A stretch of DNA of 64,000 bases from Cellulomonas palmilytica (GTDB taxonomy: Bacteria > Actinomycetota > Actinomycetes > Actinomycetales > Cellulomonadaceae), in the NCBI RefSeq assembly GCF_021590045.1, contig NZ_CP062221.1, forward strand, positions 310,001 through 374,000, in the 5' to 3' direction. The notes beneath the pieces were generated by a model, which was not told the DNA's origin, searched no databases, and saw only the letters and a program-made list of their open reading frames with translations. The position numbers and the translations under genes are program-made. Position 1 is the stretch's first letter; each line of letters starts with the position of its first letter. Below are positions 702 to 23,445 of this stretch, piece by piece.

Positions 702-985
702 CCGGTGACGACAAGGTCGCGCGGCTGCTCGACGACCTGGCGACGATGGCGGAAGACGCGGCCCACATCGTCGGCCTGGGCGAGGACGCGTACCTGGCCG
801 ACGACGCCCATGGGCGACTGCTGCGCAACGCGGGCGAGCGCATCGTCATCAAGGTGTCGACCGTGGTGGAGCGCCTCCCTGAGGACTTCAAGGAGCAGTA
901 TCCGGAGATCGAATGGGTCAAGATCCAGCGGATGCGGAACCTCGTCGCGCACCACCATGACAAGGTCCAGGCCGACTTCGTGTGA
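698..985 (+). CDS. HepT-like (DUF86) ribonuclease toxin
   Basis: An all-helical 95-aa protein starting at GTG 698, inside the stop of the MNT gene. The C-terminal part has the HepT/DUF86 signature: an Arg followed by a His cluster in 'RMRNLVAHHHD', matching the R-X4-6-Y/H-X-X-H catalytic motif of HEPN ribonucleases. HEPN toxins of this group cleave RNA and are controlled by AMP addition from the partner MNT protein. The usual Tyr of the motif is replaced by His here ('HHHD'), which matters because that Tyr is the residue normally modified. Family assignment is good; toxin activity is inferred from the pairing. Confidence 0.75.
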   Translation: MTGDDKVARLLDDLATMAEDAAHIVGLGEDAYLADDAHGRLLRNAGERIVIKVSTVVERLPEDFKEQYPEIEWVKIQRMRNLVAHHHDKVQADFV

Positions 986-1157
986 GCAACGCCGGCGCAC
1001 CGCATTCCGCAGCTGGTCGCGATCGTGGTTGGCAGCGCCGGATGAGCGCCGAGGTGCCGTCCGTCTGACGGATCGAGTCTGACGCTCACGGCGCGGCAAG
1101 GAAGTCCTCACGGTTGCAGCGCGTCCGTCCGGGCCTGCCACACCGCGAGCAGGTCCG

Positions 1158-1721
1158 TCAGTCGCGAGCAGGAACCGGAACATCGCTCCCGTACCCGAAG
1201 ACGTGTGCGCTCAACACATCCACCTCGCGCCGCGGTTCCCCGAAGAACGCGGCTAGCCTACGCGCGACCCGCGCGAACGGCCGCTCCCGCGCCTGCCCGG
1301 CCTCGTTCCAGTTCGCTGTCGGCACCACGAGGAACAGATGCTGCGCGTTCTGCGCGATGTGCACCTTCCAGAAGTCCTTGAGATCATGGTTGTTGGTCGT
1401 GGTACCGCCACGCTCGACCTCGGCAATGATCCCGCGACCAGGACTCAAGGCATAGATAAAGTCGGGCCGGGCGCGAGTGACGAACCCGTCCTGGGGAACC
1501 AGGACGACCTCCTCGGCGAAGCCGATCTCCCGTAGCAGATCACCCACGACGTGCTGGACAGCGGCACTCGACGCGCGGTGGACGTGGACCACGTCGATGG
1601 CCGGGCGCTCCGCCTCGAGGTGCGCAACCAGCCGCTGAGCCATTTCGTCCACAACGGCAATCTCGCGCGCGTCAGAGTCGCTCACGGCACTCTTTACAAA
1701 GCGCACATGACGACCGGGCAC
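1158..1721 (-). CDS. Orphan restriction-endonuclease-like protein
   Basis: A protein of 187 aa read from a GTG at 1721. The centre contains 'RPDFIYALSPGRGIIAEVERG', an Asp in a PD pair followed about 15 residues later by E-V-E in a strand. This is the layout of a PD-(D/E)XK nuclease core in which Lys is replaced by Glu, as in BamHI (E-x-E). The segment after it ('TNNHDLKDFWKVHIAQNAQHLFLVVP') resembles the strand-helix continuation of such folds. There is no methyltransferase directly beside it; the nearest cytosine methyltransferase is 12 kb away. It may be a restriction or defence nuclease, or a non-nuclease relative. The family is not recognised beyond this fold-level guess. Confidence 0.55.
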   Translation of the reverse strand: MPGRHVRFVKSAVSDSDAREIAVVDEMAQRLVAHLEAERPAIDVVHVHRASSAAVQHVVGDLLREIGFAEEVVLVPQDGFVTRARPDFIYALSPGRGIIAEVERGGTTTNNHDLKDFWKVHIAQNAQHLFLVVPTANWNEAGQARERPFARVARRLAAFFGEPRREVDVLSAHVFGYGSDVPVPARD

Positions 1722-2660
1722 GACCTCTAGCTTCCGCGGGGGCGCTCCGAGAAGCTAGCTCCGATCGGGCGACATGCGCGTCGCACGCCGCCTCAGGGAG
1801 GGGGCACCGAGCAGTCCGCCCGGTCTCAGCACGACCAGGGACGCTTCCCGCAGGTCACGGCAACCTGAGTCTCGAAGGGGCGCCCGCCTGGCAGAGCGTC
1901 CTGTTCGCGCCAGTCCGGACGGCATGCGGGGGTTGGGTGCAGCGGCAGTTGCTCGTTCCGTGCCGTCGGGAAGACTGTCCGCCTCCTTAACCGCCGACTG
2001 GAGGCCCTCTGGCGGAGCCAACGGGCCGGTGAACGACGATGGCGGCGCGGTCGGCACGCGGCGCAGATCATGTCGAAACGTGCAGGCCATACAAGTGGCG
2101 ATCGCCTGTGACGGAACAATCGTAGTGGCATCCCCTAGCAAACGATCAGTGCCACACCGGATACAAGTTTGCTTGCAAGGCAGTAGCCATCTATGAGATC
2201 CTGCGGCGTTCAGTCGACCCCAATTGCTTAGTCATTGTGGACGCAAGATGCGCTGCCCAAGGCATTATCACGCTTCGCCTGCGATTTGAAACGTGCCGCC
2301 CGCGCCATCGCCAAGATTGGCAAGGAACGGCGCGGTCTCATTGTTCCAGTCAAGCATCCCATGCTACCCGCGCGCCATCACGGCACCTCTAGGAAACGAG
2401 AGCATTCATGCGTGAACTAGGGACACTTGCCGGAACAAGCCTCTTGGTTGCGATCCCAGATTGCTCGCAGCGGCCGCCCGCAAATGCATATCATCGCTGC
2501 GGTTAAGCGCCGCGATCTCCGCGAGACCAGATTCAATACTCGCGGCAAGGTCAGTGTAGTCGCGCCCGGGGGCCTCGTCACGCCCGCGCGGATGAAATCT
2601 TACGGCCGGCCGCCCGTTCGGCCATCATTCCCGGAGAAGAGCGCTAGGTTCGGGCGCACC
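1722..2660. other. Poorly coding, lower-GC stretch before the defence island
   Basis: No convincing gene was found in about 940 bases. From roughly 2090 to 2560 the GC content is visibly lower than on either side. On the minus strand, codons from about 2183 down to 1900 read as a possible zinc-ribbon protein with two Cys pairs ('CIRCG' near 2165-2154, 'CMAC' near 2085), but there is no ATG or GTG start and the tail is Pro/Arg-rich, so it may be a decayed gene. A 61-aa reading frame at 2235-2420 has no family features. The segment probably carries the promoter of the operon starting at 2661, but I could not fix a -35/-10 pair. Confidence 0.4.
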
Positions 2661-4727
2661 ATGGATACGACCGCCGCGGGCGAGGAGCGCTACTCCTGGT
2701 GGAGCGACTCCATCCGCCGTGCATACTTTGACCAAGCGGGCAAACCGTGTGTACTTGCTGTCGACGACGCCGAACTTGGGCGGCTGGCTCCGGACCGTGA
2801 CGACGCAGTGGCTGACCTCGTCCAGGCCGTCCTCCGCGTAGGCGGTGCGCCAACCTCCAGTGACTTCTTCCCTGGCGTCATGGCACGCTTCCAGCGGTGG
2901 AGGATCGGCGGACGAGTTGAGCTCCCCCCGGTGCTGCCCCTTCTTGCGCTCTCTGTGCTGGCCGCTCACCGCATGCACGGGGATGGCACCTATTCCAAGA
3001 GCAACTACTACATCCGGCTCAGCGAGCTCCTGGCAGCAGGGGGCGCACCGGGCGGACCCGAAGAGATCCGTGCGCAGGTTGAGAGGCGCTTTGGGCGGGT
3101 GGCCGAGATGTGGCAGGGCCTCGACGAATATCTCCGAAGGCACCCCGAGCACGGCGAGTCGACGATCCCCGAGCGCCCGAGGCTGACCATCATCGGGTAC
3201 CCGATGTCGCAGGCACTCGTCCGCAGGTCCGACCGAGCTGTGCTCACGCAGTTCTTCTCGAGACTGCGCCTGGGCACTCAGCGCGACATGCCGCGTGACT
3301 TAGTCCTGGCGAACCTCCGCCTGTGGGCAAGCCGGCCCCGCGGCTTCAGTGAGCCCTTCGTCCGTGCGATCAACAGTGCCGACCTCGAGCCCCTGGTTAT
3401 CCCGATCGTGCTCAGCCTCTTGCACTCATGGGACGGCCAGGTTCTTGGCCCGGAAGGACGCACCCAGGTCGCCGCACGGCTCGTGATCGACCCCGATAGG
3501 TGGTCCTCGTCGTGGGTCGTCCAGGCTGCGGCCGACATAGGTGACACTTTCACAGGGACGATCGACAGACGCTCGGTTGAGGTGCAGGTCTTGAGGAGCG
3601 AGGGGGCCTCATACGCCCCGCTCGAAGGCCTCCCGAGCACACCTGGATCTCTCTGCAGGTCAGGATTCGAGCTCCGGGGCGACCAGGCGACCGTTGTCGC
3701 GCGGGGCGCGCGACTGGTGTTCTTCGCCGAGGACCCCGCGCTCGGGGCCTGGCTATCACGAGGCTCCATGTCGCCGTACGAGGAGCACATCGTTGCCGCG
3801 TCAGCGGACATCTCCTCCAGCTTCCGCGAGGCACTCGAGACAGCTGCCGACCCGGGCTGGCGCGAGGTGCGGCAGCGCCCCGAGTCGCCGCTGCTGGTCG
3901 GCTACGTCATCTACCGCAAGGTCCGGTTCTCTCGTGATGCCCCACTGGACAGCACCCTCCAGAAGTTGCCCTCGCTCGCCACGGCCGGCCTGCGGCCCGA
4001 CCACACCGCCCGCGCACGGTTCGTCAACGGCCTCCGCGTAGCCCGCGGCGTGAGCAGCAACTGCTACCTCACGGGCTGCGCACCAGACCTGCTGCTCCCT
4101 TCGGGCGCGGAGTCGCGGCCGGTCATCGTGACTCTCGACGGTGTGAACCAGCAGTTCCGGGCCACGGGGTTCCCCATCCCGCTTCGCCGGGTGTCCGGGC
4201 TCGAGCCTGGCCCGCACAACGTGGAGGTCGAAGGCGAGACACTGACCTTCCACCTGGTGCGCGACGACCCCGCACCGGAGAATGCAACCGGCGCAGAAGG
4301 GCTCGCCTGGGACACTGGAGGAAGCCTCTCGACCGCGACCGTCGATGCCCTCGCACGTGGCGCGGTGGTCGCGGGCGTTGACATCCTCCGGCCCATCTTC
4401 GCCCAGCGGGGGCAGGACGAGTCGGCCGTGATCCACCGCGACGGCCACTGGCAGCGTGTCATCGAGCCTGGGCGGCCCGCCTTCCTGAAAGACCAGGTCA
4501 GCCCGTCCCCCCGCTTCGAGCTCCAGGCCCCGCCATCGGCCGTCTGGCTCGCCCAGCGTCGGGGTGTGCGCTGGCGGGTGCTCAAGCTGGCTGAAGAGGC
4601 ACCGGCCTTCTCAGCCGACTCGTTGTCTGCCTCAGACCGCGACGCCTGGCGCCGCCTCGTCGGCAATGGGCCGGAGCACGACACGCTGTGGTGGGCATAC
4701 CTGCAGGCTGCGGGGGTCGACGCGTGA
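2661..4727 (+). CDS. Large defence-island protein, candidate DruF-like component
   Basis: A 689-aa protein from the ATG at 2661. The frame is open further upstream to 2427, but that part is atypical, while the protein from 2661 ('MDTTAAGEERYSWWSDS') is compositionally uniform. No catalytic motif or domain could be named. It has a helical N-terminal half (about residues 1-240) and a more mixed C-terminal half with several beta-type stretches. It lies first in a tightly coupled operon: its stop overlaps the GTG start of the next gene by four bases, and that gene overlaps the helicase gene the same way. In Druantia type II systems two unannotated proteins (DruF, DruG) accompany a DUF1998 helicase (DruE), which is why this role is proposed. 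Homology was not tested. Confidence 0.6.
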   Translation: MDTTAAGEERYSWWSDSIRRAYFDQAGKPCVLAVDDAELGRLAPDRDDAVADLVQAVLRVGGAPTSSDFFPGVMARFQRWRIGGRVELPPVLPLLALSVLAAHRMHGDGTYSKSNYYIRLSELLAAGGAPGGPEEIRAQVERRFGRVAEMWQGLDEYLRRHPEHGESTIPERPRLTIIGYPMSQALVRRSDRAVLTQFFSRLRLGTQRDMPRDLVLANLRLWASRPRGFSEPFVRAINSADLEPLVIPIVLSLLHSWDGQVLGPEGRTQVAARLVIDPDRWSSSWVVQAAADIGDTFTGTIDRRSVEVQVLRSEGASYAPLEGLPSTPGSLCRSGFELRGDQATVVARGARLVFFAEDPALGAWLSRGSMSPYEEHIVAASADISSSFREALETAADPGWREVRQRPESPLLVGYVIYRKVRFSRDAPLDSTLQKLPSLATAGLRPDHTARARFVNGLRVARGVSSNCYLTGCAPDLLLPSGAESRPVIVTLDGVNQQFRATGFPIPLRRVSGLEPGPHNVEVEGETLTFHLVRDDPAPENATGAEGLAWDTGGSLSTATVDALARGAVVAGVDILRPIFAQRGQDESAVIHRDGHWQRVIEPGRPAFLKDQVSPSPRFELQAPPSAVWLAQRRGVRWRVLKLAEEAPAFSADSLSASDRDAWRRLVGNGPEHDTLWWAYLQAAGVDA

Positions 4728-5653
4728 TTGGCGATCTGCTGCTCTCCTGGATGTCGGCGACCGGTTCTGGTTCCGTCAGGGACCTCCGGCGGCGCGTCCA
4801 GTGGATGGCCCGCACCAGCGACGCAGACCACAGCGCGCGCGCCGCCGCGCGCTGGGTGCGTGACATGACGACCCTCGGCCACTGCGAGGTCGACTGGCAG
4901 GCGGACCGATGGTCCATCGCTCCATCTGCGCTGACCGTGCTGCCCTGCTCAGACGGGCAAGCTGCCCTAGTCGGCTCCCGCCGTGCGGCACTGCTCGAGC
5001 GGCTGGAGGACAGCAACCTCTGGATCGAGCATCTCGTGCAGGAGCCCTCCGGGGACGACCTGCCGATGCCGACAGCCATCCTGGCGAGCTACGACTCGTA
5101 CGACTCGCTCGCGGCCGAGGCCGCGCGCATCGGAGCAGCATTCGCGGGGTGTGCCGCGGTGAGGCTGGCGGCACGGCTGCCGCGGATCGGCCTCGGCCGC
5201 GACGCCGCGCCGCCCTCCTGGTCCAGCACCACGCTAGAGCGGTTCGAGGGCCTGGATCACCCCTACTTCCGGTCGGCCGCGGTCCGCGGCGGAGAGCTCC
5301 TTCCAGACGGTCTGTACCGGACGGAGGTGCTGGGCCGTAACGCCTACCTGCTACTGCGGGACGGCGCCTGGCACCACTGCGGCCGCGGAGAAGGCGTGTA
5401 CCTCGAGTTGGCGCGCTGGGGGGAGACCACGCTCCGCTACCGGTCCGACGCCGTCGGCTACCCGGAGTGCGGGAGCGTCTTCGTCGACTGGGGAGCGCCG
5501 CTGCCGCCACTACAGGCGCGCGCGCTGGTGCTCTGCAGTGGCAAGGTGCCCCGTTTTGGTCAGGCCGGCCAAACGACGATCTATTGCAACGTGCCCATCA
5601 AGGTGGCCCACCTGGTGGCCGACTCACTCATGCAGAAGCTGGTCCTGCTGTGA
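4724..5653 (+). CDS. Defence-island protein, candidate DruG-like component
   Basis: A 309-aa protein beginning at GTG 4724, whose GTGA overlaps the preceding stop. The start is chosen for this overlap. The first 75 residues ('IGDLLLSWMSATGSGSVRDLRRRVQWMA' onward) look like a winged-helix or similar small helical domain; the remainder has alternating short strands and no recognised motif. Its stop again overlaps the GTG start of the helicase, so all three proteins are probably made in fixed ratio and form a complex. Assignment as the DruG position is from gene order only. It could also be a loading or specificity subunit of another helicase-based defence system. Confidence 0.55.
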   Translation: MIGDLLLSWMSATGSGSVRDLRRRVQWMARTSDADHSARAAARWVRDMTTLGHCEVDWQADRWSIAPSALTVLPCSDGQAALVGSRRAALLERLEDSNLWIEHLVQEPSGDDLPMPTAILASYDSYDSLAAEAARIGAAFAGCAAVRLAARLPRIGLGRDAAPPSWSSTTLERFEGLDHPYFRSAAVRGGELLPDGLYRTEVLGRNAYLLLRDGAWHHCGRGEGVYLELARWGETTLRYRSDAVGYPECGSVFVDWGAPLPPLQARALVLCSGKVPRFGQAGQTTIYCNVPIKVAHLVADSLMQKLVLL

Positions 5654-8600
5654 CTGGCGTGAAGCAAGCGGGACGGGGACTCATGGGCAGCACAAGCGGA
5701 GGAGAGCGTCGGCTCAACCCCCTCGGCACCTTCAACAGGCTCCGCGAGGCGTACTTCAAGTATTACGACACGCCCTTCGGGCTCGCGAACCGCCAGCTGG
5801 AGGACGAGCGACGCGAGCTCCTCGACCGTGACGGCGGCGTGTTCCGCAGCCCGCACATCGAGCTCCGCCCGGAGTACGTCACAGCCGACCGTCCTCTGGG
5901 CGAGTCCGTAAGCGCTTCGGGCGCCGCGCCAGAGCTCGAAGCGTTCGCGCAGTGCGGGCTCTTCCCACCTGGAGTCGTCCTGTACCGCCACCAGGAGGAG
6001 GCGCTTGCGGCCGGGGTCGCCCAGGACGGGCACATGGTCATCACGGCGGGCACCGGCTCAGGCAAGACAGAGTCGTTCTTGCTCCCGGTGCTGTCGACGC
6101 TGCTCAAAGAGTCCAGGGGGTGGCAGGGCGGGCCTGCGCCGCAGCAAGCGTCACCTTGGTGGCGGAGCGACACCGAGCCCTTCGCAGCGCAGCGGGAGGG
6201 GGAGCACGGCCGGCGCCAGGCGGTGCGGACGCTGATCCTGTACCCGATGAACGCTCTGGTCGACGACCAGCTCATCCGCCTACGCCGTGCTCTCGACAGC
6301 GATGCGGCCCGGACCTGGCTCGACACCCACCGCAGCGGGCACCGTTTCTACTTCGGGCGCTACACGGGGTCGACGCCTGTCACGGGCGCGCCGGGCAACG
6401 GCCTCGCCGTCAAGGACCTGCGCCACTACCTCAGAGAGACCGAGACCAGGTCGAGCCGCGCAAGGGAGCTTGCTTCGTCTCCCGGGGCGGACCCAGACAC
6501 CCAGTACTTCGTGCCACGGCTCGACGGTGCTGAGATGCGGTCCCGCTGGGACATGTCCGCCGCGCCGCCGGACATCCTCATCACGAACTACTCGATGCTC
6601 AACGTCATGCTCCTCCGGGAGAAGGACGATCTCTTCTTCGAGTCCACCAAGGCGTGGCTGGACGAGGACCCGGACAACAAGTTCACGCTGGTCGTCGACG
6701 AGCTGCACATGTACCGCGGCACGGCAGGCACTGAGGTCGCCTACCTCCTGCGGCAGCTGCGCCACCGGCTAGGGCTCGACAACCGGCCCGGCCAGTTCCG
6801 CGTGCTCGCAGCATCCGCCTCTCTGGACCCCTCGCGCGACCAGGAGTACCTGGCGAGCTTCTTCGACGTCGAGCCAGGCAAGTTCGAGTTCGTGCGAGGA
6901 CATCTTGTGCCCTCACTTCCCGCAGCAGCGAGCACTGTGCCCCCGGCGCAGGTCCTGGACGCCTCCGACGCACCAGCGGCGGCCGCCCTCGCGCGCACCA
7001 CGGGGCTCACCGCCGCCATCAGGGCCGCCCTGCACGAGGGTGAAGGTGGCGGCACCTCCAAGACTGCGGCCGACCTTGCTCAGCGCCTGTTCCCCGGAGC
7101 CCCGCCGGAGGAGGGAGAACAGGCGGTAGGGCGCATCCTCGAGGGCCTCGCAGCCGACCCGGAGCCCGGTGACCCTCGGCTCCGGGTGCACATGTTCTTC
7201 CGTAACGTTCCGGGCATCTGGGCGTGCACCGATCCCGAGTGTGGCAGGGTCCCCCCCGAGCACCGCGAGGGGCGAGGAGTCGGCTGGCTCTACGCCGAGC
7301 CGGTCAGCCGCTGCGGCTGCGGCAACCGCGTGCTCGAGCTGCTCTACTGCCAGAACTGCGGTGACGTGTTCCTCGGCGGCTTCGCGCCGGAGGGCGCCAC
7401 GCAGCGGAGCGCGGTGGACACGACGCTCCTCGCCGACGTGCCAGAGCTCGCGAAGCTTCCCGACCAGGTGTCGCTCGAGCGCACCGCCGCGAACTACGTC
7501 GTGTACTGGCCCGACCCGCGGCCCACCCTCGACCGGCTGGACAAAGCGGTGTGGGGCGCCAAGAAGACGGTCGAGTTCGCGTTCAGGAGGTCCGAGCTCA
7601 AGCCCGGCACCGGCGGCCTGCGCAACACAGAGGCCGGCGCCACGGGCTGGAGCTTCCACGTGACCGCCGCCCCCGGCTCCAAGAACGGCCCGGCCGCTCA
7701 CGAACTCAGCCCGTTCCCAACACAGTGCCCCTCCTGCGGGGACGACTGGGAGATCAAGTTCAGCCACGACCGCAACGGCATGCTCCCCGTGACAGACCCC
7801 CTTCGGAAGCGGTCGCCGATCCGTGCGATGCGCACCGGTTTCGAGAAGATCAATCAGGTTCTCATCACCGAGCTCGCTGGTGACCTCGACGAGGACGACC
7901 GCAAGGTGATCGTCTTCACCGACAGTCGCCAGGACGCAGCGAAGCTGTCCTCAGGCCTGGCGCTGCGTCACTACCAGGACCTACTGCGGCTGCTCCTCGT
8001 CCAGCGGCTCACCGCGGCTGGCGACCCTGCCGATGACGTGCGGCTGGCGAAGGCCCACGTGGTGGGCGGCACGAAGACTGACGCGTCATGGGAGGCGCTC
8101 GACCGGCTCGCGGAGAGGGACCCTGCCACGCTGTCCGAGCTCCGGAGCTACTGGGAAGGCAAGCCGGGTGGGACCGACGAGCTCCTGGCTCGCCTCGAAC
8201 AGCGTCTGGGCTCCCAGCCCAGCATCGCTGAGATCTCAAGTGGACTGGCTAGCGACCTGCTCGCGCTGGGCATGAACCCCGGCGGGCCGCACGCCAACCT
8301 GCAGCAGACAGACGAGATCAAGAACCCACGGCCATGGACGTCCTGCTACGACTGGGACGTCACGCCACCCAAGGAGCGCGGCGGGCTTGCACCAGCACAG
8401 AAGACGCTGGTCCGAGACATCCAGCAGTCCCTGATCAAGGAGCTGCTGGACGGCTTGTTCTCCGGTGCGGGACGCGACTTCGAGTCGCTCGGGCTCGGCT
8501 GGCTCACGCTCGAAGGCGACACCGCCGGGCCCGACATCGACCCGTCCAGCTCTCTCGCGCACGTCCGCGCAGCGCTGCGCGTGCTCGCCGACCAGCGGCG

Positions 8601-11157
8601 GTTCTTCGGGCTCCGGGACGGCAGGCAGGACCCCACCGCTCGGCTCCGGTCGCTGTGGACGGCAGTCGAGCGCGAGGGTGGGCCTGACCAGACTTCGATG
8701 CGGGACCTCGTCCTCGGCAGGGCCGGCGGTGCCATCACCGACTACCTCATCGACCCGGCCAAGGTGATCCTGCGGCGCGGCGGGCAAGAAGGGTGGGCGT
8801 GTCCCAAGTGCAAGCGGACCCACCTCACACGGGGCTGCGCACTGTGCACCAGGTGCGGGACGCCGCTCCCCTCCGAGACTGCACCGATCGACAAGCAGGA
8901 CGACTACTACGCGTGGAAGGCCACCAGCGGTGACGGCCGGTTCCGGCTCCACTGCGCGGAGCTGTCCGGCCAGACCGACCGCGTCGACGCCCAGTCACGC
9001 CAGAGCCGGTTCCAGGGGGTCTTCCTCGACCAGCGGGAGCGGGAACTCCCGGACGGCATCGACCTGCTGTCGGTCACGACGACGATGGAGGCGGGAGTCG
9101 ACATCGGCTCGCTGTCGGTCGTCGTGCTCGGCAACATGCCTCCCACACGCTTCAACTACCAGCAGCGTGTCGGGCGGGCTGGCCGGAGGAGCTCGCCCGT
9201 CGCCGTCGCACTCACCGTCTGCCGCGGCCGCAGCCACGACGAGTACTACTTCGACCGGCCCGAGAAGATCACGAACGAGCCGACGCCGAAGCCTTACCTC
9301 GCCCTGAAGCAGCGGGAGATCTTCGACCGGGCCCTCCGCAGCCACGTCCTGCAGACCGCTATGCGGTCACTCGGCACCCACCTGGACTCCGACCCCGATA
9401 TCGACTTCACGGCGACAGCGAACGTCCATGGCGCCTTCGGCAAGACCTCTCAATGGGAAGCCCTGCGGCCACATCTCGCAGGCTGGCTGGCCGGTCACAA
9501 GGCCGACGTCCGTGCCGGTGCAGTCGCTCTGGCGCGAAGCACTCCGTTCGAGAGCGAAGCCATGGCGATCGCCGACGAGCTGTGCGGCACCCTCGTCCCG
9601 CAGATCGACGAGGCGGTGACGACGGGAGTCCATGAGGACCTCAGCCAGCGGCTCGCTGAGGTGGGGCTGCTCCCCATGTTCGGTTTCCCCAGCAGCGTCA
9701 GGTATCTGCATCTCCGGCGCCCCGACAAGGCCTACCCGTGGCCACCTGCCGCCTCAATCGACCGGGACCTCCCGATGGCGGTCACCCAGTTCGCACCGAT
9801 GAGCGAGATCGTCAAGGACGGCCGCGTCTACACCGTGGTCGGCGTCTCCTCGTTCGAGCCGCGACGGCCGTGGCCTCGCGCCTCTGCCGACCCCCTCGGC
9901 GCGTCACGTGCCCTCGCCGTGTGCCGGGCTTGCTCCTACCTGCACGACGCAGAGGCGGAGGCCAGCGAAGAGCAAGAGGTATGCCCTCGCTGCGGGGCGG
10001 GACCTGACAGCTTCAGGTCGATGCCGCTGCGCGAGCCGCTGGGGTTCCGCGCAAGCGCGAAGGTCCGCGACTTCGACGGCAACTTCTCCTGGACGGCCCG
10101 CGCCATGGCGGCCCGGGCACACACCGACCTCACGGCGCTGAGCCAGCAGCCGACGGGGGCCGGTGTCGTGTACGCCGGCCCGGGCCGCCGGTACGTCATC
10201 AACGACAACGGCGGGAAGCTCTTCGGCTTCGTCGGGACGCCTTCAGGCGGGCAGGACTGGGGTGGCTTCATCTCGACAGATGCGGTCAAGCGTGACCTGG
10301 TGTACGGCAAGGACCCGGTGGGCGAACCATTCGACGTTGCCCTTGGCGCGGTCCAGCCCACGGACTTCCTGTTCTGGGGCCCTGACCAGCCTGTGCGAGC
10401 GAAGGAGGGGGTACGGCTCAACCTCGCCGCCGGGGCTCAGCAGCCGTCGGGTGCACGAGAGTCCGGAGAGGGCCGCCGCGGGGCGTGGTACAGCCTCGCC
10501 TTCCTGCTCAGGACCGCGGCAGCGGCGTGGCTCGACATCCAGCCTGTGGAGCTGACGGCAGGCATCTACTCCGGGCTCGTCGACGACCAGCCCGCGCTCT
10601 TCGCGTTTATCGCAGACACCCTCGAGAACGGCGCGGGCTTCAGCACCTACCTCGGCACGGCGGGGCTCACCGAGTACCAGGAGGCGATTGCCAGGCTCCT
10701 GAAGGAGCTCGAACAGGAGAGCCACGCGCAGGAATGCAGCGCGTCGTGCTACCGGTGCCTGCGGGACTACGGGAACATGGCATACCACGCGCTCCTGGAC
10801 TGGCGGCTGGCGCGGGACCTCTATGGCCTGCTCCAGGGTGGGACGCTGACCGTCGACACTGAGGCCGAGAAGAAGGCGATCGCGCGTTGGTCGGAGTCAT
10901 TCGGCGCGCAGGTCATAGAGGGTGCGCCGGCCGCGACAGCGCACTACGGCCACCCAAAGTTCGGGAGCATCGCCGTCGTGGCCAAGCATCCCCTCGAGGC
11001 GTCGGAGACGACCCTGATCTCGCAGAGGATGCTAGACGCTCAGGTATTCGCAGAGGCCAACCTCGACGACCTTGACGGCGTGGTCTTCGTCGACACGTTC
11101 ACGCTCGACCGCGAGCCACGCCGGGTCCTCGAGATGTGCGAGGAGGTCGAGGGGTAG
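5650..11157 (+). CDS. Giant DEAD/DEAH helicase with zinc clusters and DUF1998 C-terminus (DruE-like)
   Basis: About 1835 aa from GTG 5650 (overlapping the previous stop; ATG 5683 is a possible alternative). Helicase motifs are clear: Walker A TAGTGSGKTES near residue 133, the DExH motif 'VVDELHMY' near 350, 'FTDSRQDAAKL' near 755, and 'TTTMEAGVDIG...QRVGRAGRR' near 1140-1180. Cysteine clusters suitable for zinc occur around 7225-7370 ('CGCGN...CQNCGDVF'), 7729 ('CPSCGDDW'), 8797-8860 ('CPKCK...CTRCG') and 9931-10000. The C-terminus has the DUF1998 signature 'CSASCYRCLRDYGN'. Size and layout match DruE helicases of Druantia and are related to the DISARM DrmA/DrmB pair, here in a single chain. 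It is expected to move on DNA during phage defence; the exact mechanism is not known. Confidence 0.85.
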   Translation: MTGVKQAGRGLMGSTSGGERRLNPLGTFNRLREAYFKYYDTPFGLANRQLEDERRELLDRDGGVFRSPHIELRPEYVTADRPLGESVSASGAAPELEAFAQCGLFPPGVVLYRHQEEALAAGVAQDGHMVITAGTGSGKTESFLLPVLSTLLKESRGWQGGPAPQQASPWWRSDTEPFAAQREGEHGRRQAVRTLILYPMNALVDDQLIRLRRALDSDAARTWLDTHRSGHRFYFGRYTGSTPVTGAPGNGLAVKDLRHYLRETETRSSRARELASSPGADPDTQYFVPRLDGAEMRSRWDMSAAPPDILITNYSMLNVMLLREKDDLFFESTKAWLDEDPDNKFTLVVDELHMYRGTAGTEVAYLLRQLRHRLGLDNRPGQFRVLAASASLDPSRDQEYLASFFDVEPGKFEFVRGHLVPSLPAAASTVPPAQVLDASDAPAAAALARTTGLTAAIRAALHEGEGGGTSKTAADLAQRLFPGAPPEEGEQAVGRILEGLAADPEPGDPRLRVHMFFRNVPGIWACTDPECGRVPPEHREGRGVGWLYAEPVSRCGCGNRVLELLYCQNCGDVFLGGFAPEGATQRSAVDTTLLADVPELAKLPDQVSLERTAANYVVYWPDPRPTLDRLDKAVWGAKKTVEFAFRRSELKPGTGGLRNTEAGATGWSFHVTAAPGSKNGPAAHELSPFPTQCPSCGDDWEIKFSHDRNGMLPVTDPLRKRSPIRAMRTGFEKINQVLITELAGDLDEDDRKVIVFTDSRQDAAKLSSGLALRHYQDLLRLLLVQRLTAAGDPADDVRLAKAHVVGGTKTDASWEALDRLAERDPATLSELRSYWEGKPGGTDELLARLEQRLGSQPSIAEISSGLASDLLALGMNPGGPHANLQQTDEIKNPRPWTSCYDWDVTPPKERGGLAPAQKTLVRDIQQSLIKELLDGLFSGAGRDFESLGLGWLTLEGDTAGPDIDPSSSLAHVRAALRVLADQRRFFGLRDGRQDPTARLRSLWTAVEREGGPDQTSMRDLVLGRAGGAITDYLIDPAKVILRRGGQEGWACPKCKRTHLTRGCALCTRCGTPLPSETAPIDKQDDYYAWKATSGDGRFRLHCAELSGQTDRVDAQSRQSRFQGVFLDQRERELPDGIDLLSVTTTMEAGVDIGSLSVVVLGNMPPTRFNYQQRVGRAGRRSSPVAVALTVCRGRSHDEYYFDRPEKITNEPTPKPYLALKQREIFDRALRSHVLQTAMRSLGTHLDSDPDIDFTATANVHGAFGKTSQWEALRPHLAGWLAGHKADVRAGAVALARSTPFESEAMAIADELCGTLVPQIDEAVTTGVHEDLSQRLAEVGLLPMFGFPSSVRYLHLRRPDKAYPWPPAASIDRDLPMAVTQFAPMSEIVKDGRVYTVVGVSSFEPRRPWPRASADPLGASRALAVCRACSYLHDAEAEASEEQEVCPRCGAGPDSFRSMPLREPLGFRASAKVRDFDGNFSWTARAMAARAHTDLTALSQQPTGAGVVYAGPGRRYVINDNGGKLFGFVGTPSGGQDWGGFISTDAVKRDLVYGKDPVGEPFDVALGAVQPTDFLFWGPDQPVRAKEGVRLNLAAGAQQPSGARESGEGRRGAWYSLAFLLRTAAAAWLDIQPVELTAGIYSGLVDDQPALFAFIADTLENGAGFSTYLGTAGLTEYQEAIARLLKELEQESHAQECSASCYRCLRDYGNMAYHALLDWRLARDLYGLLQGGTLTVDTEAEKKAIARWSESFGAQVIEGAPAATAHYGHPKFGSIAVVAKHPLEASETTLISQRMLDAQVFAEANLDDLDGVVFVDTFTLDREPRRVLEMCEEVEG

Positions 11158-11167
11158 GAGGCCCGCG

Positions 11168-12142
11168 ATGGAGACACCTCACGGATGGCTTGCGCCGTCG
11201 TCGGCTTGGCGGCTGGCTCAGTGCGGCGCGTCCGCCGTGCCGTCTGCCGCGCCTATTGCCCCCACTCCCGGGCACGTCACCAGCGCGGGCTCGGCAGCAC
11301 ACGCGGCTGTGGCCGCCTGGGTGCAGCAAGGGCTGTGGAAGCGTCCGGGGCCTCATCTCGAGCGCCTATACGACGACGTCTGTAGAGCTCATGGCCTTGA
11401 GCCAGAGAGCATCCGTGACGGCCGCCTCACCCGTGGCCGCCTCGGCGCGCGGGAACAGCAGCTCCGCTCGCTGCTGCTCTCTGCGGGCCCCAACCCCCTC
11501 GTCTCGTGCGAGACGCCCGTCCGCGATGACATGCGACGGCTGTGGGGCATCCCCGACCTCGTCGCCCGGGGCACCGCGACGCTGGTGATCGACCTGAAGA
11601 CCGGCACTCGTGCGACGGCTCCTCTGCCCGACCGGGTCAGGGACCAGCTCCTTATGTACGCCCACCTGGTCAGCGTGGAAGACGGGAAGTTTCCAGCCCG
11701 CGCCGTCGTCTTCAGTCTCATCAAGGGCACCATCGAGATCAGCCTGGGCGCGGCAGACTTCGACCGGCTACTGGCCGGCATCGACGCGGCGCGAGCCTCG
11801 CAGCCGAAGGCCCGGCCATCCCCAGATGCGTGCAGGTCCTGCGCACGCCGCCTCACCTGCGGGCCGCACTGGGACGCCGTGCACCTGTGGGACGAGCCAG
11901 ATGGGCTCGAGGGCGAGATCCTCAGAGTCGCCGCAGCAGAGAACGGCGCCGTGTCAGTGCAGCTGTTGACGACGGGCGGGCCAGCCTGGCTCACGCACCT
12001 CGAGCCCAAGATGCTGGGCCGGGATGTAGCTGTGGGGCGCCACGCCCGCGCTGTCCGTGTCGTCCGCCGCACTTCATCACCCGAGACGTGGCGAGCGACC
12101 CGACAGACACAGGTAGCTGCTACCACCTGGCGCAGCGACTAA
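11168..12142 (+). CDS. RecB/Cas4-like PD-(D/E)XK nuclease
   Basis: A 324-aa protein from ATG 11168, preceded by GGAGG; the longer open frame upstream is Ser/Arg noise overlapping the helicase. The N-terminus 'LAPSSAWRLAQCGAS' is the typical first helix of RecB/AddB/Cas4 nucleases. The core 'GIPDLVARGTATLVIDLKTG...DQLLMYAHL' supplies the catalytic Asp, D-L-K and Q-x3-Y motifs. The C-terminal 'CRSCARRLTCG' with the upstream Cys could ligate an iron-sulfur cluster. Such enzymes degrade or resect DNA ends and often act with a helicase. It lies 10 bases downstream of the helicase gene, so it is very likely in the same operon. It is not a named part of the classical Druantia type II set. Confidence 0.8.
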   Translation: METPHGWLAPSSAWRLAQCGASAVPSAAPIAPTPGHVTSAGSAAHAAVAAWVQQGLWKRPGPHLERLYDDVCRAHGLEPESIRDGRLTRGRLGAREQQLRSLLLSAGPNPLVSCETPVRDDMRRLWGIPDLVARGTATLVIDLKTGTRATAPLPDRVRDQLLMYAHLVSVEDGKFPARAVVFSLIKGTIEISLGAADFDRLLAGIDAARASQPKARPSPDACRSCARRLTCGPHWDAVHLWDEPDGLEGEILRVAAAENGAVSVQLLTTGGPAWLTHLEPKMLGRDVAVGRHARAVRVVRRTSSPETWRATRQTQVAATTWRSD

Positions 12143-12193
12143 CGGCATGTGGGTGCGTGGCTTCCAACGCACCACAACCCTCGGAGGCAACAG

Positions 12194-12889
12194 ATGGACC
12201 TCAACTGGCAGGACGACAATCTCGGCACCCGGGTGCGGGTGGCGCTCTGGCTGACGAAGGAAGTGGGCGAGGGTGGCACGTTCCGCAAGCAGCAGCTGCG
12301 TGACGCCATGCCCGGCGTCGAGCAGATCGACCGCCGAATGCGCGACCTCCGGCCCGCCGGGTGGGAGATCCTCACCTACCGTGACCGCGCCGGGCTGGAG
12401 CCTGACGAGCTGCTCCTCAACAAGATCGGGCTGCCGGTGTGGCGGCCCGAGCACCGGGCGGCAGGGCTCCGGGTGATCCCGGCCCGGGTCCGCCAGCAGG
12501 TTCTCGAGCGGGACTCGCACAGGTGCGTGCGGTGCGGGGTCCTCGCTGGTGAGCCGTACGCCGACGACCCCGCAACGACCGCCCGCCTCACCATCGGCCA
12601 CGTCAGCCCGCACAAGTACGGCTCGGCGGCCACGGCCTCGGACCTGGTGACCGAGTGCGCGCGCTGCAACGAGACGGTCAAGCACTTCACGGGCGCACGG
12701 CTGACGAAGGAGCAGGTGTGGGACCGCGTTGTCGACCTGAGCAACCGCGACAAGGTCAAGGTGCTGTCGTGGCTCGAGAAGGGCCGTCGCGAGGCGTCGC
12801 CCGCTGAGATCGCGGCGTCACTGGTGTTCCAGCTCCCCGCAGTCGAGCGTGACGAGATCCGTGACCGGCTCGCGGACGCCGTCGGCTGA
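12194..12889 (+). CDS. HNH endonuclease
   Basis: A 231-aa protein with start ATG 12194, preceded by GGAGG at 12183-12187. The N-terminal 95 residues look like a helical DNA-reading domain ('GGTFRKQQLRDAMPGVEQIDRRMRDLRPAGW'), as found in HNH restriction proteins. The nuclease core at about residues 105-160 has 'RCVRCG', the catalytic His in 'IGHVSPHKYG', and the second Cys pair plus Asn in 'ECARCNETVKH', the H-N-H/zinc-finger arrangement. The gene overlaps the start of the Vsr gene, and a cytosine methyltransferase follows. HNH-Vsr-Dcm sets are common actinobacterial restriction loci, so this may be the restriction enzyme matching that methyltransferase, or an accessory nuclease of the helicase operon. 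Confidence 0.8.
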   Translation: MDLNWQDDNLGTRVRVALWLTKEVGEGGTFRKQQLRDAMPGVEQIDRRMRDLRPAGWEILTYRDRAGLEPDELLLNKIGLPVWRPEHRAAGLRVIPARVRQQVLERDSHRCVRCGVLAGEPYADDPATTARLTIGHVSPHKYGSAATASDLVTECARCNETVKHFTGARLTKEQVWDRVVDLSNRDKVKVLSWLEKGRREASPAEIAASLVFQLPAVERDEIRDRLADAVG

Positions 12890-13328
12890 CCGGCCCGGAG
12901 CGAGCGGATCCTGGGCTTCGACGCCCGGGGTCCGCTCGCGCATGCAGCTCCAGCGGAGCCGCGACACCGCTCCAGAGATGGCGCTGCGCAGGCTCATGCA
13001 CGCGCGCGGCCACCGGTACAGAGTTGACCGTCTGCTCCCACTCGTCGGCGTCCAAAGGCGTGCCGACCTCGTCTTCGGCCCTGCCCGCGTCGCGGTCTTC
13101 GTCGACGGGTGCTTCTGGCACGGCTGCCCGCTCCACGGCAACCCGGCCGTTAAGGCCAACGTCTGGTACTGGCCTGACAAGATCGCCCGCAATCGGGCAC
13201 GAGATGCCGACACAGACCGGCGGCTCCGCGAGATCGGCTGGCTGCCGTTCCGGGCATGGGAGCACGAGACACCGTCGGACGTGGCGGACCGTCTCGAGGC
13301 TGCGCTCCGCAGCCGGAGGCTCAGCTGA
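12849..13328 (+). CDS. vsr: Very short patch repair endonuclease (Vsr)
   Basis: A protein of up to 159 aa. The 5' end is uncertain: GTG 12849, GTG 12861 and ATG 12942 are possible, all but the last overlapping the HNH gene. The conserved core starts at 'STPGVRSRMQLQRSRDTAPEMALRR', matching the usual Vsr N-terminal region, so a start before 12942 is preferred. 'ADLVF...VAVFVDGCFWHGCP' contains the catalytic Asp and the zinc-binding His/Cys residues of the family. Vsr nicks next to T:G mismatches created by deamination of 5-methylcytosine. The gene ends convergently with the cytosine methyltransferase, overlapping by eight bases, which fits the expected functional partnership. Confidence 0.9.
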   Translation: MTRSVTGSRTPSADRPGASGSWASTPGVRSRMQLQRSRDTAPEMALRRLMHARGHRYRVDRLLPLVGVQRRADLVFGPARVAVFVDGCFWHGCPLHGNPAVKANVWYWPDKIARNRARDADTDRRLREIGWLPFRAWEHETPSDVADRLEAALRSRRLS

Positions 13329-14601
13329 TCTGCCGGCGCCTCCCGTGGTCCGCGAAGGCAAGGTGCCGGTCGTGGTCCTCCTGGCCGCGGAACGCCTTGA
13401 AGTCGCCGAGCTTCCAGGCTGTGCTCCCGCCGCGCGGGGCCTCGTGGACCTCGAAGTCGTGCTTGAGACGGCTGATCCTGGCCTCGATTTCGTCGGCGGT
13501 GAGGCGCGATCCCAAGGTGCGCTCGATCCGCGCCGTGGTCATCCAGTCGTCGGCGTCCCGCAGCGCCCGGTAGACCTCGTCGTGCATCTTCCGCTCTGGG
13601 CTACGCTCCGCTGAGCTGGTAGCGGGATCGAAGGCACGGGCGATTGCCTCACCCACGGCGCGGGCGACCGGGGGCGGGAACGCGTTGCCGACCTGCCGGT
13701 AGTGCGACGTCTTGCGGCCGGTGAACGTCCACTCATACTCAGGCCCATGCCAGCCCTGCAACCGCTCCACCATCTCCAGCGTCAGCCGGGGCATGTGGTT
13801 CGGGTCAGTGGTGTTCGGAGGCTCGTTGGCGATGCCCATGCCGTCGACACCGAGCGCAGCCCACGCCCGCTTGGCACGAGTCGGCCCGAGGTCGGCCCCG
13901 CCGTGCTTCTTGCTGCCGCCCACGATGGTGGGGGCGATGCCGGTCGCACGCTCGTAAGCCCACGTGTCTGCGTGCTTCCAGTTCTTCGACATGAGGTCCA
14001 GGAGCGTCGTGCCGACAGTCTCAGACGTCGGCTTCTTCTCCGGCCACTCGAAGCGCGCCGCGTCCTCCGGCCGGAGTGCCACAAGCACGAAGCGTGGCCG
14101 CAGCTGGGGGACGCCGTAGTCCTTGGCCTCGAGCAGCTCCCAGTCGGCGACGTAGCCGAGCTCCTCGAACCGGTCAATGACCGCCTGCCGGTAGCCACCG
14201 AAGCGAGTGGAAGAGAGGCCACGTACATTCTCGAGCATCACAGCACGCGGCTGCATGCGGCCTGCCAGTTCAACCGCCCACGCGAAGAGGTCCCGCTCGT
14301 CATTTGCACCCAGTTGCTTCCCAGCGACACTGAATGGCGGGCACGGCACCCCTCCTGCCAGGAGGTCGATCCCAGCCTGGAACTCTGAGGGATTCCAGAC
14401 CCGCGGATCAGCGACGTCGCCGACAGCAACAAGAGACTCCACGTCGTCACCCGGCTGGAGCCGCCCCAGGTTAGTGCGGAGGGTCGCAGCGGCCGTCGGG
14501 TCGATCTCTACTGCGAGTCTGTGCTCGAACCCCGCGAGGTGGAGCCCTAGTGACTGGCCGCCCGCTCCAGCGCAGATCTCGACGACACTCAGCTTGCTCA
14601 C
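13321..14601 (-). CDS. dcm: DNA (cytosine-5)-methyltransferase
   Basis: A 426-aa protein with all main C5-methyltransferase motifs: I 'EICAGAGGQSLG' (AdoMet binding), IV 'GGVPCPPFS' with the catalytic Cys, VI 'ENVRG', VIII 'QLRPR', and X 'RQVGNAFPPPVARA'. The target-recognition region is about residues 190-290 and the recognition sequence cannot be read from it. A C-terminal extension after motif X (from about residue 335, 'HDEVYRALRDADDWMTTARIERTLG') looks like a winged-helix domain, an addition seen in some stand-alone Dcm proteins. It would protect host DNA from the HNH or helicase-nuclease machinery on the opposite strand. In a Druantia type II reading it takes the DruM position. Confidence 0.92.
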   Translation of the reverse strand: MSKLSVVEICAGAGGQSLGLHLAGFEHRLAVEIDPTAAATLRTNLGRLQPGDDVESLVAVGDVADPRVWNPSEFQAGIDLLAGGVPCPPFSVAGKQLGANDERDLFAWAVELAGRMQPRAVMLENVRGLSSTRFGGYRQAVIDRFEELGYVADWELLEAKDYGVPQLRPRFVLVALRPEDAARFEWPEKKPTSETVGTTLLDLMSKNWKHADTWAYERATGIAPTIVGGSKKHGGADLGPTRAKRAWAALGVDGMGIANEPPNTTDPNHMPRLTLEMVERLQGWHGPEYEWTFTGRKTSHYRQVGNAFPPPVARAVGEAIARAFDPATSSAERSPERKMHDEVYRALRDADDWMTTARIERTLGSRLTADEIEARISRLKHDFEVHEAPRGGSTAWKLGDFKAFRGQEDHDRHLAFADHGRRRQIS

Positions 14602-15242
14602 ACCGACTCCTCAACCCGCCGACTAGGAGCCTGCACTCGGCTCCGAGAGCAGTGTGGCCCATGGCGCAGACACTGATCACGCAGCGGTAGCTTCCCTGTC
14701 GGTCGCCAGTGCGCCCGGCAGCACTCGCGCGATGCTTCAGCTCGGGTGCTCAGTTAGCTCTACGGCCCCAACCGACTCGATCGCCTTACGGGTTGCAGGA
14801 GCGTTGTGACCCGACGAAGCACGCCACAGGCATCATCGGTGCAGCCAGGCTCCCTGCTCACGTGCAGCGTCACGTGGGATCGCGCACATAAGCCGGTACT
14901 GATCGCCCTCAGGCGAGGATAGCCAGGTGGGCGAGTCAGCCCGGCCGCCTCGGCGCTACCGGCTGAGTGCTAGCCACTCGTCAGCGCCTGCTTGAGCGGG
15001 GCTCATGGCCGCCCCGGAACTCTGACCCGCTGTCGATGATGCGCCGCCGCAGCTCATCAGGCGGTCGGCAGCGACTGCACCTCCCGCCGAGGCCGCATGT
15101 GGCCCACGCACCCACCCGGCTAGAGTCCCCCACGTAAGCGGCCCGACGGACTTCCGCCCCGCGCTCTGCGCCCGCGGCGGACATGTCCCCTCCGCACGAT
15201 CCTTCGTGCTGCCAGGGGACGATCTCGGTGGGTGTGAACCGG
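14602..15242. other. Non-coding interval between the methyltransferase and the nuclease-helicase gene
   Basis: About 640 bases separating divergently transcribed genes. I see no convincing gene. GC is somewhat lower near 14650-14900. A stretch around 14735-14810 has tRNA-like words but does not fold into a cloverleaf with paired acceptor ends. The interval should contain the promoters for both flanking genes. No direct repeats or attachment-site-like duplications were recognised. Confidence 0.4.
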
Positions 15243-17126
15243 ATGAGCGCCGACGCGCTCGCCGCCATGACGGACAGTGACTCCTCGGAGATCGAGCGTG
15301 TGCTCGCGGATTACCTCTTCCAGGAAGGTGTCGGCGTCCCGGGCATCGGTGAACGGCGGTCGTGGCGGAGCAGCCTGCCGGTCCTCGCGCGGGACCTGCG
15401 TGACGCAGGGCTGGGCAAGGTCGAGGTGATCCTCGAGCACCGCCTGCCGCTGACCAGCAAGCGCGCGGACGTGGTGCTGGCCGGGGTGCACCCGCGGACC
15501 GGCGCGCCGTCGTACGTCGTCGTGGAGCTCAAGCAGTGGGGCAGGGCCGCACGCTGGGAGACCAGCGACTCGCTCGTCGAGGTGGAGGGCGCTCCCTACC
15601 GTCCGTCGCTGCACCCGTCGCTGCAGGTCGCGGGGTACGTCGACTACCTGCAGGACTTCACGGCGTCGCTCGCCGACGGCCACGCGTCGGTGACCGGTGT
15701 GGCCTACCTGCACAACGCGACGGACCACGGCGTGCAGGACCTGCGGGCGATGCCTGCGTCGTCGTCCGCCCGGCTCGTCACCGGCCAGCGTCGCGGCGAG
15801 CTGCACGACCTGCTGCGGGGTCTGCTCGCGCCGGAGCCTGGGGTCCACGCCGCTGACGAGCTCCTCGGCTCGGCGATCCGCCCGTCGCGGCAGCTGCTCA
15901 GCGTCGCGGCCGCCGAGATCCGCGAGCGCGAGCAGTTCGTCCTCCTCGACGAGCAGCGCGTCGCCTACGAGATGGTGCTGGCGGCCGTCGACGAGGCGCG
16001 GTCGTCGGACACCAAGACGGTGGTCGTCGTGGCCGGTGGTCCCGGCAGCGGCAAGAGCGTGATCGCACTGTCGCTTCTGGGCGAGCTGGCTCGCCAGGGT
16101 CGCACGGTGCTACACGCGACCGGCTCGCGGTCGTTCACGCAGACCTTGCGCCAGGTGGCCGGCAAGGGTTCGACCCGGACCAAGAGCCTGTTCATGTACT
16201 TCAACAGCTTCATGACCGCGGAGAAGAACGGGCTGGACGTGCTCATCCTCGACGAGGCACACCGCCTCCGGGAGAAGTCCGTCAACCGGTACACGCCCAA
16301 GACGTTGCGTGAGCGTGCGCGCGCTCAGGTCGACGAGCTCCTCGACGCCGCCCGCGTCCCCGTCTTCCTGCTCGACCAGCACCAGGTGGTGCGCCCGGGC
16401 GAGCTGGGCAGCGTTCCGGAGATCGAGCAGGCCGCCCGCGCGCGGGGCCTCACCGTGCGGCACGTCGACCTGGGGGCGCAGTTCCGCGCCGGAGGCAGCG
16501 AGCGCTACGTCGAGTGGGTGCAGCGGCTGCTCGGGCTGCACGGCGAAGGACCCGTGCCCTGGGCGGACGAGCCGGGCTTCCGTGTCGATGTCGTCGACAC
16601 GCCACACGAGCTCGAGGCCCGGCTGCGCGCGTACCAGGACGCCGGCTCCAAGGCGCGCATGACCGCCGGCTACTGCTGGCGCTGGAGCGACCCGCGACCT
16701 GACGGCACCCTGGTCCCCGACGTCCAGATCGGCGACTGGTCACGCCCGTGGAACCTCAAGGGCGACCGCGCCACCGGCGGGGCGCCGCCGTCGTCGCTGT
16801 GGGCGACCGACCCCGCCGGCTTCGGACAGGTCGGCTGCGTCTACACGGCCCAGGGCTTCGAGTACGACTGGAACGGCGTGATTCTTGGCCCCGACCTGGT
16901 GTGGCGCGACGGCAGGTTCGTCGCCCGGCGGGACCAGAACCGCGACCCCGACTTCCGCAGCAGGACGAGCGTGGACGACGCCACCTTCGACCGCCTGGTG
17001 CGGCACGTCTACAAGGTGCTGCTCACCCGCGGGATGGTCGGCACGCTGCTGTACTCGCCGGACGAGGAGACCCGCGACGCGTTGCGCGAGCTCGTCAACC
17101 GGCCCGGGGGCCCGCCTGGCAGGTGA
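15243..17126 (+). CDS. PD-(D/E)XK nuclease fused to DUF2075 (Schlafen-group-3-like) helicase
   Basis: About 627 aa from ATG 15243; ATG 15267 and an upstream in-frame ATG at 15183 are alternatives. The N-terminal part has 'RADVVLAG...YVVVELKQW', an Asp followed by E-L-K, which fits a PD-(D/E)XK nuclease. From about residue 240 a P-loop ATPase follows: Walker A 'VAGGPGSGKSV', Walker B 'VLILDEAH', and later 'CVYTAQGFEYDWNGVILG', typical of DUF2075 superfamily 1 helicases. Proteins of this type occur alone in defence islands. It is transcribed away from the methyltransferase and closes the island. Substrate (DNA or RNA) is not evident from the sequence. Confidence 0.85.
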   Translation: MSADALAAMTDSDSSEIERVLADYLFQEGVGVPGIGERRSWRSSLPVLARDLRDAGLGKVEVILEHRLPLTSKRADVVLAGVHPRTGAPSYVVVELKQWGRAARWETSDSLVEVEGAPYRPSLHPSLQVAGYVDYLQDFTASLADGHASVTGVAYLHNATDHGVQDLRAMPASSSARLVTGQRRGELHDLLRGLLAPEPGVHAADELLGSAIRPSRQLLSVAAAEIREREQFVLLDEQRVAYEMVLAAVDEARSSDTKTVVVVAGGPGSGKSVIALSLLGELARQGRTVLHATGSRSFTQTLRQVAGKGSTRTKSLFMYFNSFMTAEKNGLDVLILDEAHRLREKSVNRYTPKTLRERARAQVDELLDAARVPVFLLDQHQVVRPGELGSVPEIEQAARARGLTVRHVDLGAQFRAGGSERYVEWVQRLLGLHGEGPVPWADEPGFRVDVVDTPHELEARLRAYQDAGSKARMTAGYCWRWSDPRPDGTLVPDVQIGDWSRPWNLKGDRATGGAPPSSLWATDPAGFGQVGCVYTAQGFEYDWNGVILGPDLVWRDGRFVARRDQNRDPDFRSRTSVDDATFDRLVRHVYKVLLTRGMVGTLLYSPDEETRDALRELVNRPGGPPGR

Positions 17127-17219
17127 CACGCCCGTGGCCCGTCTGGACCGACCGGCGTGGGCTCCCCCGAAGGTCTGCACAACCGGGCGGTTCGCCCGCC
17201 GCGCGGCTACGGCGGCGGG

Positions 17220-17668: not shown

Positions 17669-17761
17669 GGTCCCCGTCAGCGCAGGTGCCCCGACGGGCG
17701 ACGCCGACGACCGCCCCGAGGCGCCGAGCGGTGCTGACCGAGGCGTCCGACGCTCGGCCCC

Positions 17762-17863: not shown

Positions 17864-17886
17864 ACGACGATCGCGGCGGGCCGCGA

Positions 17887-18555: not shown

Positions 18556-18570
18556 GCCGCCCTCCTTCGC

Positions 18571-21913: not shown

Positions 21914-22092
21914 GATTCGTCCGATCGCCCGGTGGTCGTTCGATGCACGCGGACGACCCCCGCTGGAAGCCGACGGACGGGGATCGGGAGCACCGCTCGG
22001 CGCGAATATCTCGACCCGGATCGGCCTTGTCCAGCGACCCCACCCCTAACCGATTGGGCCGATTTCGGGCAGTCATGCCCGGTGCGAGAGTG

Positions 22093-23430: not shown

Positions 23431-23445
23431 GCCCCGCGCACGTCC

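Follow-up and report, generated by a model that had tools for sequence, protein, structure and literature searches.

A Druantia type IV locus with a DruK nuclease gene beside a NaeI/NgoMIV-clade methyltransferase, Vsr and HNH set in Cellulomonas palmilytica

The gene set described here lies in a stretch of 64,000 nucleotides of Cellulomonas palmilytica (contig NZ_CP062221.1, positions 310,001 to 374,000; hereafter the window, in whose numbering all coordinates are given) and consists of seven genes, the frames of which are all open. The first four are co-directional on the plus strand. Gene druF (2661..4727) encodes a protein of 688 amino acids (aa) matching the PADLOC profiles DruF2 and DruF4 with 691 and 688 bits, druL (4724..5653) a 309-aa protein matching DruL4 with 350 bits, and druE (5650..11157) a helicase of 1824 or 1835 aa matching DruE4 with 2458 bits, whereby the three genes are joined via GTGA overlaps at 4724-4727 and 5650-5653. 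They are followed by druK (11168..12142; 324 aa; PADLOC DruK, 334 bits; PDDEXK_1, 46 bits) and, still on the plus strand, by a gene for an HNH protein (12194..12889; 231 aa; HNH_5 at 27.3 bits, just below the cut-off of 27.5) and vsr (12942..13328; 128 aa; Pfam Vsr, 60.5 bits; E. coli Vsr structure 1cw0, 49.9 bits). The seventh gene encodes a C5-cytosine methyltransferase (13321..14601; 426 aa; PADLOC DruM2, 682 bits; PF00145, 201.6 bits). Since it is on the minus strand and convergent with vsr, with an 8-base overlap at 13321-13328, it stands outside the dru operon. An earlier, sequence-only reading had listed two unrecognised proteins of 689 and 309 residues, a DUF1998-type helicase of 1835 residues, two GTGA overlaps between them and a C5 methyltransferase nearby. 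The frames are open and both overlaps are present, the 688 aa being counted from the ATG at 2661 (689 includes the stop or an earlier start); the methyltransferase is real, albeit on the opposite strand and not in the operon. The genes druK, HNH and vsr had been missed.

Judged by its predicted proteins, the locus belongs to a phage-defence family that already has a name and has been little studied, Druantia type IV. According to Payne et al. (2021; PMC8565338), this type combines DruE and DruF with DruL and has neither DruM nor DruG, both of which are required in type II. PADLOC profiles were compared with 12 correctly framed window proteins, vsr not being among them: seven from 1158-14601 at E 0.01, four more at E 0.001, and one other. 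The core genes DruF-DruL-DruE correspond to the published type IV set, DruL standing in the place of DruG, with DruK also present; DruG was not listed for any of these proteins. The DruE4 profile covers residues 21-1833 of the helicase and scores 445 bits above DruE2 (2013 bits). The Druantia assignment of the sequence-only reading was therefore borne out, including DruF as the first protein, and its proposal of a type II-like system was not, as the second protein is DruL and DruE4 outscores DruE2. Nor is this a divergent member or a related, unnamed system, because the gene set is that of the published type IV. The word "unrecognised" held for Pfam and NCBIfam, where neither DruF nor DruL has a match at E 0.01, and failed for PADLOC, whose matches of 691 and 350 bits are not due to chance.

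A single point blurs the line between types IV and II. A type IV locus should have no DruM, and a methyltransferase matching the DruM2 profile lies 2.2 kb past druE, which is why the locus looked like type II; whether it counts depends on the definition. It is nevertheless very improbable that we deal with a divergent type II Druantia or with another YprA-helicase system, such as DISARM, a reading already disfavoured by the profiles. Although DruF2 and DruM2 match well, and a set similar to the present one (NaeI, HNH, Vsr and methyltransferase) adjoins the DISARM genes drmA-drmB in Rhodococcus opacus pROB02, the helicase score and the presence of DruL4 speak for type IV. No DrmB, DrmC or DrmE was listed for the 12 proteins (for the methyltransferase, among the best 25 of 62 families). 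Separate DrmA and DrmB proteins and a DrmC nuclease, as in DISARM, were thus not found, and the match of DrmA to DruE is confined to 64 residues (37 bits). Type II was rejected for want of DruG, DISARM for want of its partner genes, and an unnamed new system by the PADLOC scores themselves; the PADLOC comparison upheld Druantia, with DruE4 as the best helicase profile, and neither type II nor DISARM partners.

The N-terminal part of DruF is helical and is accompanied by several beta domains (predicted fold with a predicted local distance difference test value of 86.9). DruL begins like a winged helix and is the counterpart of the C-terminal region of long DruF2 proteins. Six peptide patterns derived from this DruE, searched for in genome contigs, led to 37 related loci, which are therefore not a random draw. 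The DruF and DruL profiles each match in 36 of them, the matches in L029, L037 and L039 being weak or fragmented; in L024 neither matched, and its DruE is without the first part. DruE itself is a YprA-family superfamily 2 helicase with zinc-binding cysteines. It matches the Pfam families DEAD and Helicase_C; the "DUF1998-type" label is apt for the pattern cysteines C1696, C1700 and C1703, kept in 38/38 aligned rows, though DUF1998 itself was not matched. The motifs DELH and QRVGRAGRR are likewise kept in all 38 rows (the window included) and GTG[SA]GKT in 36, the other two being gapped. The start might be GTG 5650 (1835 aa) or ATG 5683 (1824 aa), and homology to the relatives begins near residue 20. 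At the C-terminus, E1783 and D1815 are kept in 37/38 rows, and no full nuclease motif was seen by eye. At this place, an inactivated Vsr domain is predicted for types I and II by Bell et al. (2025; PMC12458937).

DruK is a predicted PD-(D/E)XK nuclease. Its residues C19, H45, E115, D130, D142, C222, C225 and C231 are kept in 14/14 full-length rows and K144 in 13 (the broken L003 copy, the contig-cut L008 copy and the weak L039 match were left out of the alignment). The pattern of a histidine, D, D-x-K and four cysteines is that of the Cas4/AddB-type iron-sulfur (Fe-S) nucleases. As a complete nuclease motif was not seen in the C-terminal domain of this DruE, DruK may be the source of the cut and would cut or degrade DNA. 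The DruK profile was found at 17/38 loci (broken in L003, cut in L008, at 44 bits in L039) and a gene for an Hsp70-like protein at 13/38, with no overlap between the two groups.

The methyltransferase motifs P86-C87 and E124-N125-V126 are present in 20/20 aligned rows. In the tree, 17 Druantia-linked and seven other methyltransferases form one clade of 24 rows with a support of 99, which places the protein, with its predicted catalytic motifs kept, in the M.NaeI/M.NgoMIV clade; this clade also occurs without Druantia. NaeI and NgoMIV both cut GCCGGC. The METHYLTRANSFERASE set probably represents a type II restriction-modification set made of the methyltransferase, Vsr and the HNH protein, with GCCGGC as the predicted specificity. 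Among the related loci, 13 contain the NaeI cluster (PF09126; two members scanned, 360 and 426 bits) and three the NgoMIV cluster (PF09015; two members scanned, 368 and 159 bits). The HNH gene adjoins the methyltransferase set and is a candidate restriction enzyme; in L079-L081 and L084, relatives of it occur together with methyltransferases of this clade. As for Vsr, a Caulobacter study ties a cytosine methyltransferase acting on YGCCGGCR functionally to a Vsr-like protein (PMC12907096).

An important question is whether the methyltransferase clade is linked with Druantia. Using a profile built from the loci themselves, the clade (at least 480 bits) was found within ~10 kb at 17 of the 38 loci, that is, the 37 related ones and the window, spanning 11 of 17 genera or equivalent groups. 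In comparison, only 6/395 other actinobacterial genomes had a methyltransferase of at least 55% identity anywhere (Fisher p 1.6e-15, uncorrected for descent and too small because the rows are related by descent). NaeI was present at 13/38 loci versus 3/396 genomes (p 9.9e-13, also uncorrected for descent). The background counts whole genomes and is thus conservative; the locus profile counts take broken copies as present and leave out L041 (3.9 kb). Four further loci (L005, L027, L038 and L039) have other or cut C5 methyltransferases, the one in L005 being cut by the locus edge; the L008 copy is cut by the contig end. Given a C5 methyltransferase, it belonged to this clade (at least 240 bits) at 16/20 loci versus 6/97 genomes. 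The six background copies (L079-L084) accompany HNH, NgoMIV or NaeI genes, and their genomes have no DruE4 match above 76 bits, the best being a distant 1734-residue frame in G385. Relatives of the methyltransferase were also found in 17 plasmid records, four of which were examined, all with NgoMIV or NaeI nearby. Paracoccus and Azonexus records have a relative of ~56% identity with NgoMIV adjoining; in the N. gonorrhoeae record the relative (49.5%) adjoins an NgoMIV gene recognised by profile, and in Rhodococcus opacus pROB02 the relative (59.4%) occurs with NaeI, HNH and Vsr beside the DISARM genes drmA-drmB. Where the locus was without the methyltransferase, the whole genome was searched in 21 of 22 cases (L011 excepted): copies of at least 55% identity were found in L008, L013, L017 and L031, and pieces at 51-57% in L012, L016 and L033; L005, L023, L027, L029, L038 and L039 have at most distant copies. 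Among the listed genomes of genus code g9 in the phylum sample, 2/11 reach 55% methyltransferase identity. Nothing was drawn from either result. The literature search found no paper naming Druantia together with NaeI or with GCCGGC; the restriction partner is notable, with no earlier description found.

Based on the predicted gene identities, the helicase, DruK and methyltransferase motifs, the layout, the variable island (see below) and the recurrent linkage, the best explanation is, with moderate confidence, a Druantia type IV system with a DruK nuclease standing beside a restriction-modification set of the NaeI/NgoMIV clade. Several observations weigh against it. No restriction enzyme of known specificity was found in the genome (0 matches for NaeI; NgoMIV was not searched genome-wide), and GCCGGC avoidance was not seen in the window. 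By eye, the HNH histidine is kept in the window copy and absent in 3/8 aligned relatives, and HNH co-occurs with NaeI (HNHb; L007, L010, L035 and L037) or NgoMIV (HNHa; L009), for which reasons a role of HNH as a plain substitute for NaeI is doubtful. The methyltransferase clade is missing from 21/38 loci, among them the 13 with the Hsp70-like gene, which have neither DruK nor the clade at the locus. It is also missing from the plasmid loci L089-L092 (Shinella, Alisedimentitalea, Rhizobium and Deinococcus), whose DruE is more distant and one of which has an MvaI/BcnI enzyme instead. Finally, the nearest relative, L003 of Cellulomonas denverensis (89% in DruE), keeps druF, druL, druE and HNH; at L003:15496-16991, a ~0.5 kb core is missing from its druK and only a truncated vsr is left, and the site no longer holds the methyltransferase. 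The same genome has a Vsr-NaeI-methyltransferase set elsewhere, which is compatible both with coupling and with independence.

These observations bring up a serious competitor, to which we give somewhat less than even credence: two independent defence systems in one island, with the restriction-modification set merely travelling along by the clustering of defence genes and no cooperation between them. It would account for the six genomes with the restriction clade and no strong DruE4, for L003, where the dru core remained after the set had gone from the site, and for the gene order and strand that differ between loci. Moreover, on the DruE tree (a quick tree with long branches, that of L039 most of all) the restriction clade needs 8 changes; DruK requires 3 and the Hsp70-like gene a single one. 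Clustering alone, however, would not favour one clade, as seen at 16/20 loci among those with a C5 methyltransferase, bearing in mind that the rows are related by descent.

The condition of L003 also raises the thought that the locus described here, intact in sequence, is no longer a working defence but silent or decaying. The search upstream of druF gave no Rfam match and no promoter-like site with a sigma-70 pattern in 1690-2700, which is weak evidence in an actinobacterium. All seven frames are open in the window, and dN/dS (the ratio of nonsynonymous to synonymous substitution rates) against L003 is 0.14 for DruE, 0.20 for DruL and 0.27 for DruF, pointing to purifying selection. A dead locus is thus highly unlikely.

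For the preferred combination of type IV Druantia and a neighbouring restriction-modification set, we infer the following mechanism as a whole. DruF, the proposed recognition unit, would act with DruL as a recognition or adaptor unit. DruE would load onto DNA with 3' single strands and then move along it, as does the type III DruE in vitro, which prefers 3'-tailed DNA (PMC13192584). DruK might then process the DruE-loaded DNA by cutting or degrading it. The methyltransferase would mark GCCGGC on the host DNA, Vsr would repair deaminated sites, and the ends on which DruE-DruK act may come from the restriction of phage DNA that lacks the mark. Because many related loci are without it, the restriction set would be an accessory. 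A stronger version, which we put forward only tentatively, is that Druantia type IV cooperates with one restriction-modification specificity, GCCGGC: NaeI, NgoMIV or HNH would break unmarked phage DNA, DruE and the Fe-S nuclease DruK would take the ends, "DruM" would serve a genuine type II restriction-modification system as its modification subunit, and the same module would partner DISARM, which likewise relies on a helicase from this family. Cooperation between the modules, if real, would connect the classical restriction enzymes with the large helicase systems. In the open-licence papers, no published mechanism was found for Druantia types II and IV. With its nuclease encoded by a gene of its own, the locus is a compact case for tests in an actinobacterium, and the enrichment of a single methyltransferase clade provides a testable explanation for the association of a cytosine methylase with Druantia.

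The genes are situated in a variable genomic island covering 1..18578 of the window, with its left edge ~386 bases before it. In the same-genus genome G403, both flanks are present (window -386 and 18578), enclosing 13.6 kb without a blastn match to the window; with shared flanks and different intervening DNA, the island is a variable site of ~19 kb. DruF was matched in 2/38 related genomes, as distant long forms, and neither the window nor the preceding 19 kb yielded a tRNA gene. At 243-985 a helix-turn-helix-nucleotidyltransferase protein is followed by a short HepT-like protein, resembling a toxin-antitoxin pair. The ~0.9 kb before druF (1722-2660) has no assigned gene, and GC content is lower there (62% over 2001-3000). 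The same island carries a Schlafen group 3 helicase protein at 15243-17126 (PF09848, 286 bits) with strong full-length relatives in 6/38 related genomes. Right of the island, at 20165-27452, a CBM2-GH30 enzyme, a GDSL-ricin-lectin protein and a GH3 enzyme are encoded, which agrees with the host having been called a cellulolytic actinobacterium.

Some of the related loci differ in their partner genes. In 13 Streptomyces loci (L011, 15412-19720; L012-L014, L016, L017, L019, L024, L025, L031, L033, L034 and L036), DruE is followed by a 580-aa protein, a ~270-aa protein and an Hsp70-like protein (PF00012, 210 bits), and there is no DruK. The 580-aa and ~270-aa proteins have no Pfam match, and PADLOC matches none of the three; by eye, the 580-aa protein ends in a J-domain-like stretch. 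Nine of these loci (L011, L013, L014, L017, L019, L025, L031, L033 and L036) also encode a 400-750-aa candidate N6-adenine methyltransferase (by eye; cluster c9), which in eight of them lies upstream. Loci L006, L007, L020 and L021 encode a modification-dependent restriction protein of the AspBHI type near DruE (Pfam, on the L020 copy); all four carry the GCCGGC-type methyltransferase clade, and 5-methylcytosine would be expected, so that a conflict or a partnership is possible. On the Alisedimentitalea scapharcae plasmid (L090:5961-19119), a 1013-aa DruF-DruL fusion precedes DruE, after which come a protein of 655 aa that weakly matches GajB/NERD-UvrD, a C5 methyltransferase and a restriction enzyme of the MvaI/BcnI kind. 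In a Microbacterium metagenome-assembled genome (L037:8989-15398), either decay or an assembly error has broken the DruL and DruE genes into several frames. On pROB02 (L133, 9000-32000), the NaeI-HNH-Vsr-methyltransferase genes stand beside a DISARM-like drmA-drmB pair with a NERD-helicase protein.

Compared with known systems, the locus shares with DISARM, as exemplified by pROB02, a DUF1998-type helicase and a similar adjoining restriction set; it differs in that DISARM has DrmA and DrmB as separate proteins, with the DruF and DruL profiles unmatched in the 9.2 kb scanned there (L130) and the drm genes scanned with PADLOC. NaeI/NgoMIV restriction-modification systems have the same methyltransferase clade, often with Vsr adjacent, whereas the locus here has an HNH gene and neither NaeI nor NgoMIV. 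Cas4-like nucleases share the PD-(D/E)XK residues and four cysteines with DruK, although its Cas4 profile score is weak (31 bits). Within Druantia, type III has a DruE helicase of the same family, with a more divergent partner; according to PMC13192584 and PMC13316683, it has DruH instead of DruF-DruL, and its DruE carries its own active phospholipase D (PLD) nuclease domain. Type II shares DruE, DruF and a nearby cytosine methylase; here, DruL replaces DruG, the DruE4 score exceeds that of DruE2, and the methylase is outside the operon. With type IV, as presented in the accessible part of PMC8565338, the locus shares adjacent and co-directional DruE, DruF and DruL; it differs from that published type, which is without DruM, by the DruM2-like methyltransferase downstream on the other strand and by DruK, named in PADLOC-DB, which follows in the operon.

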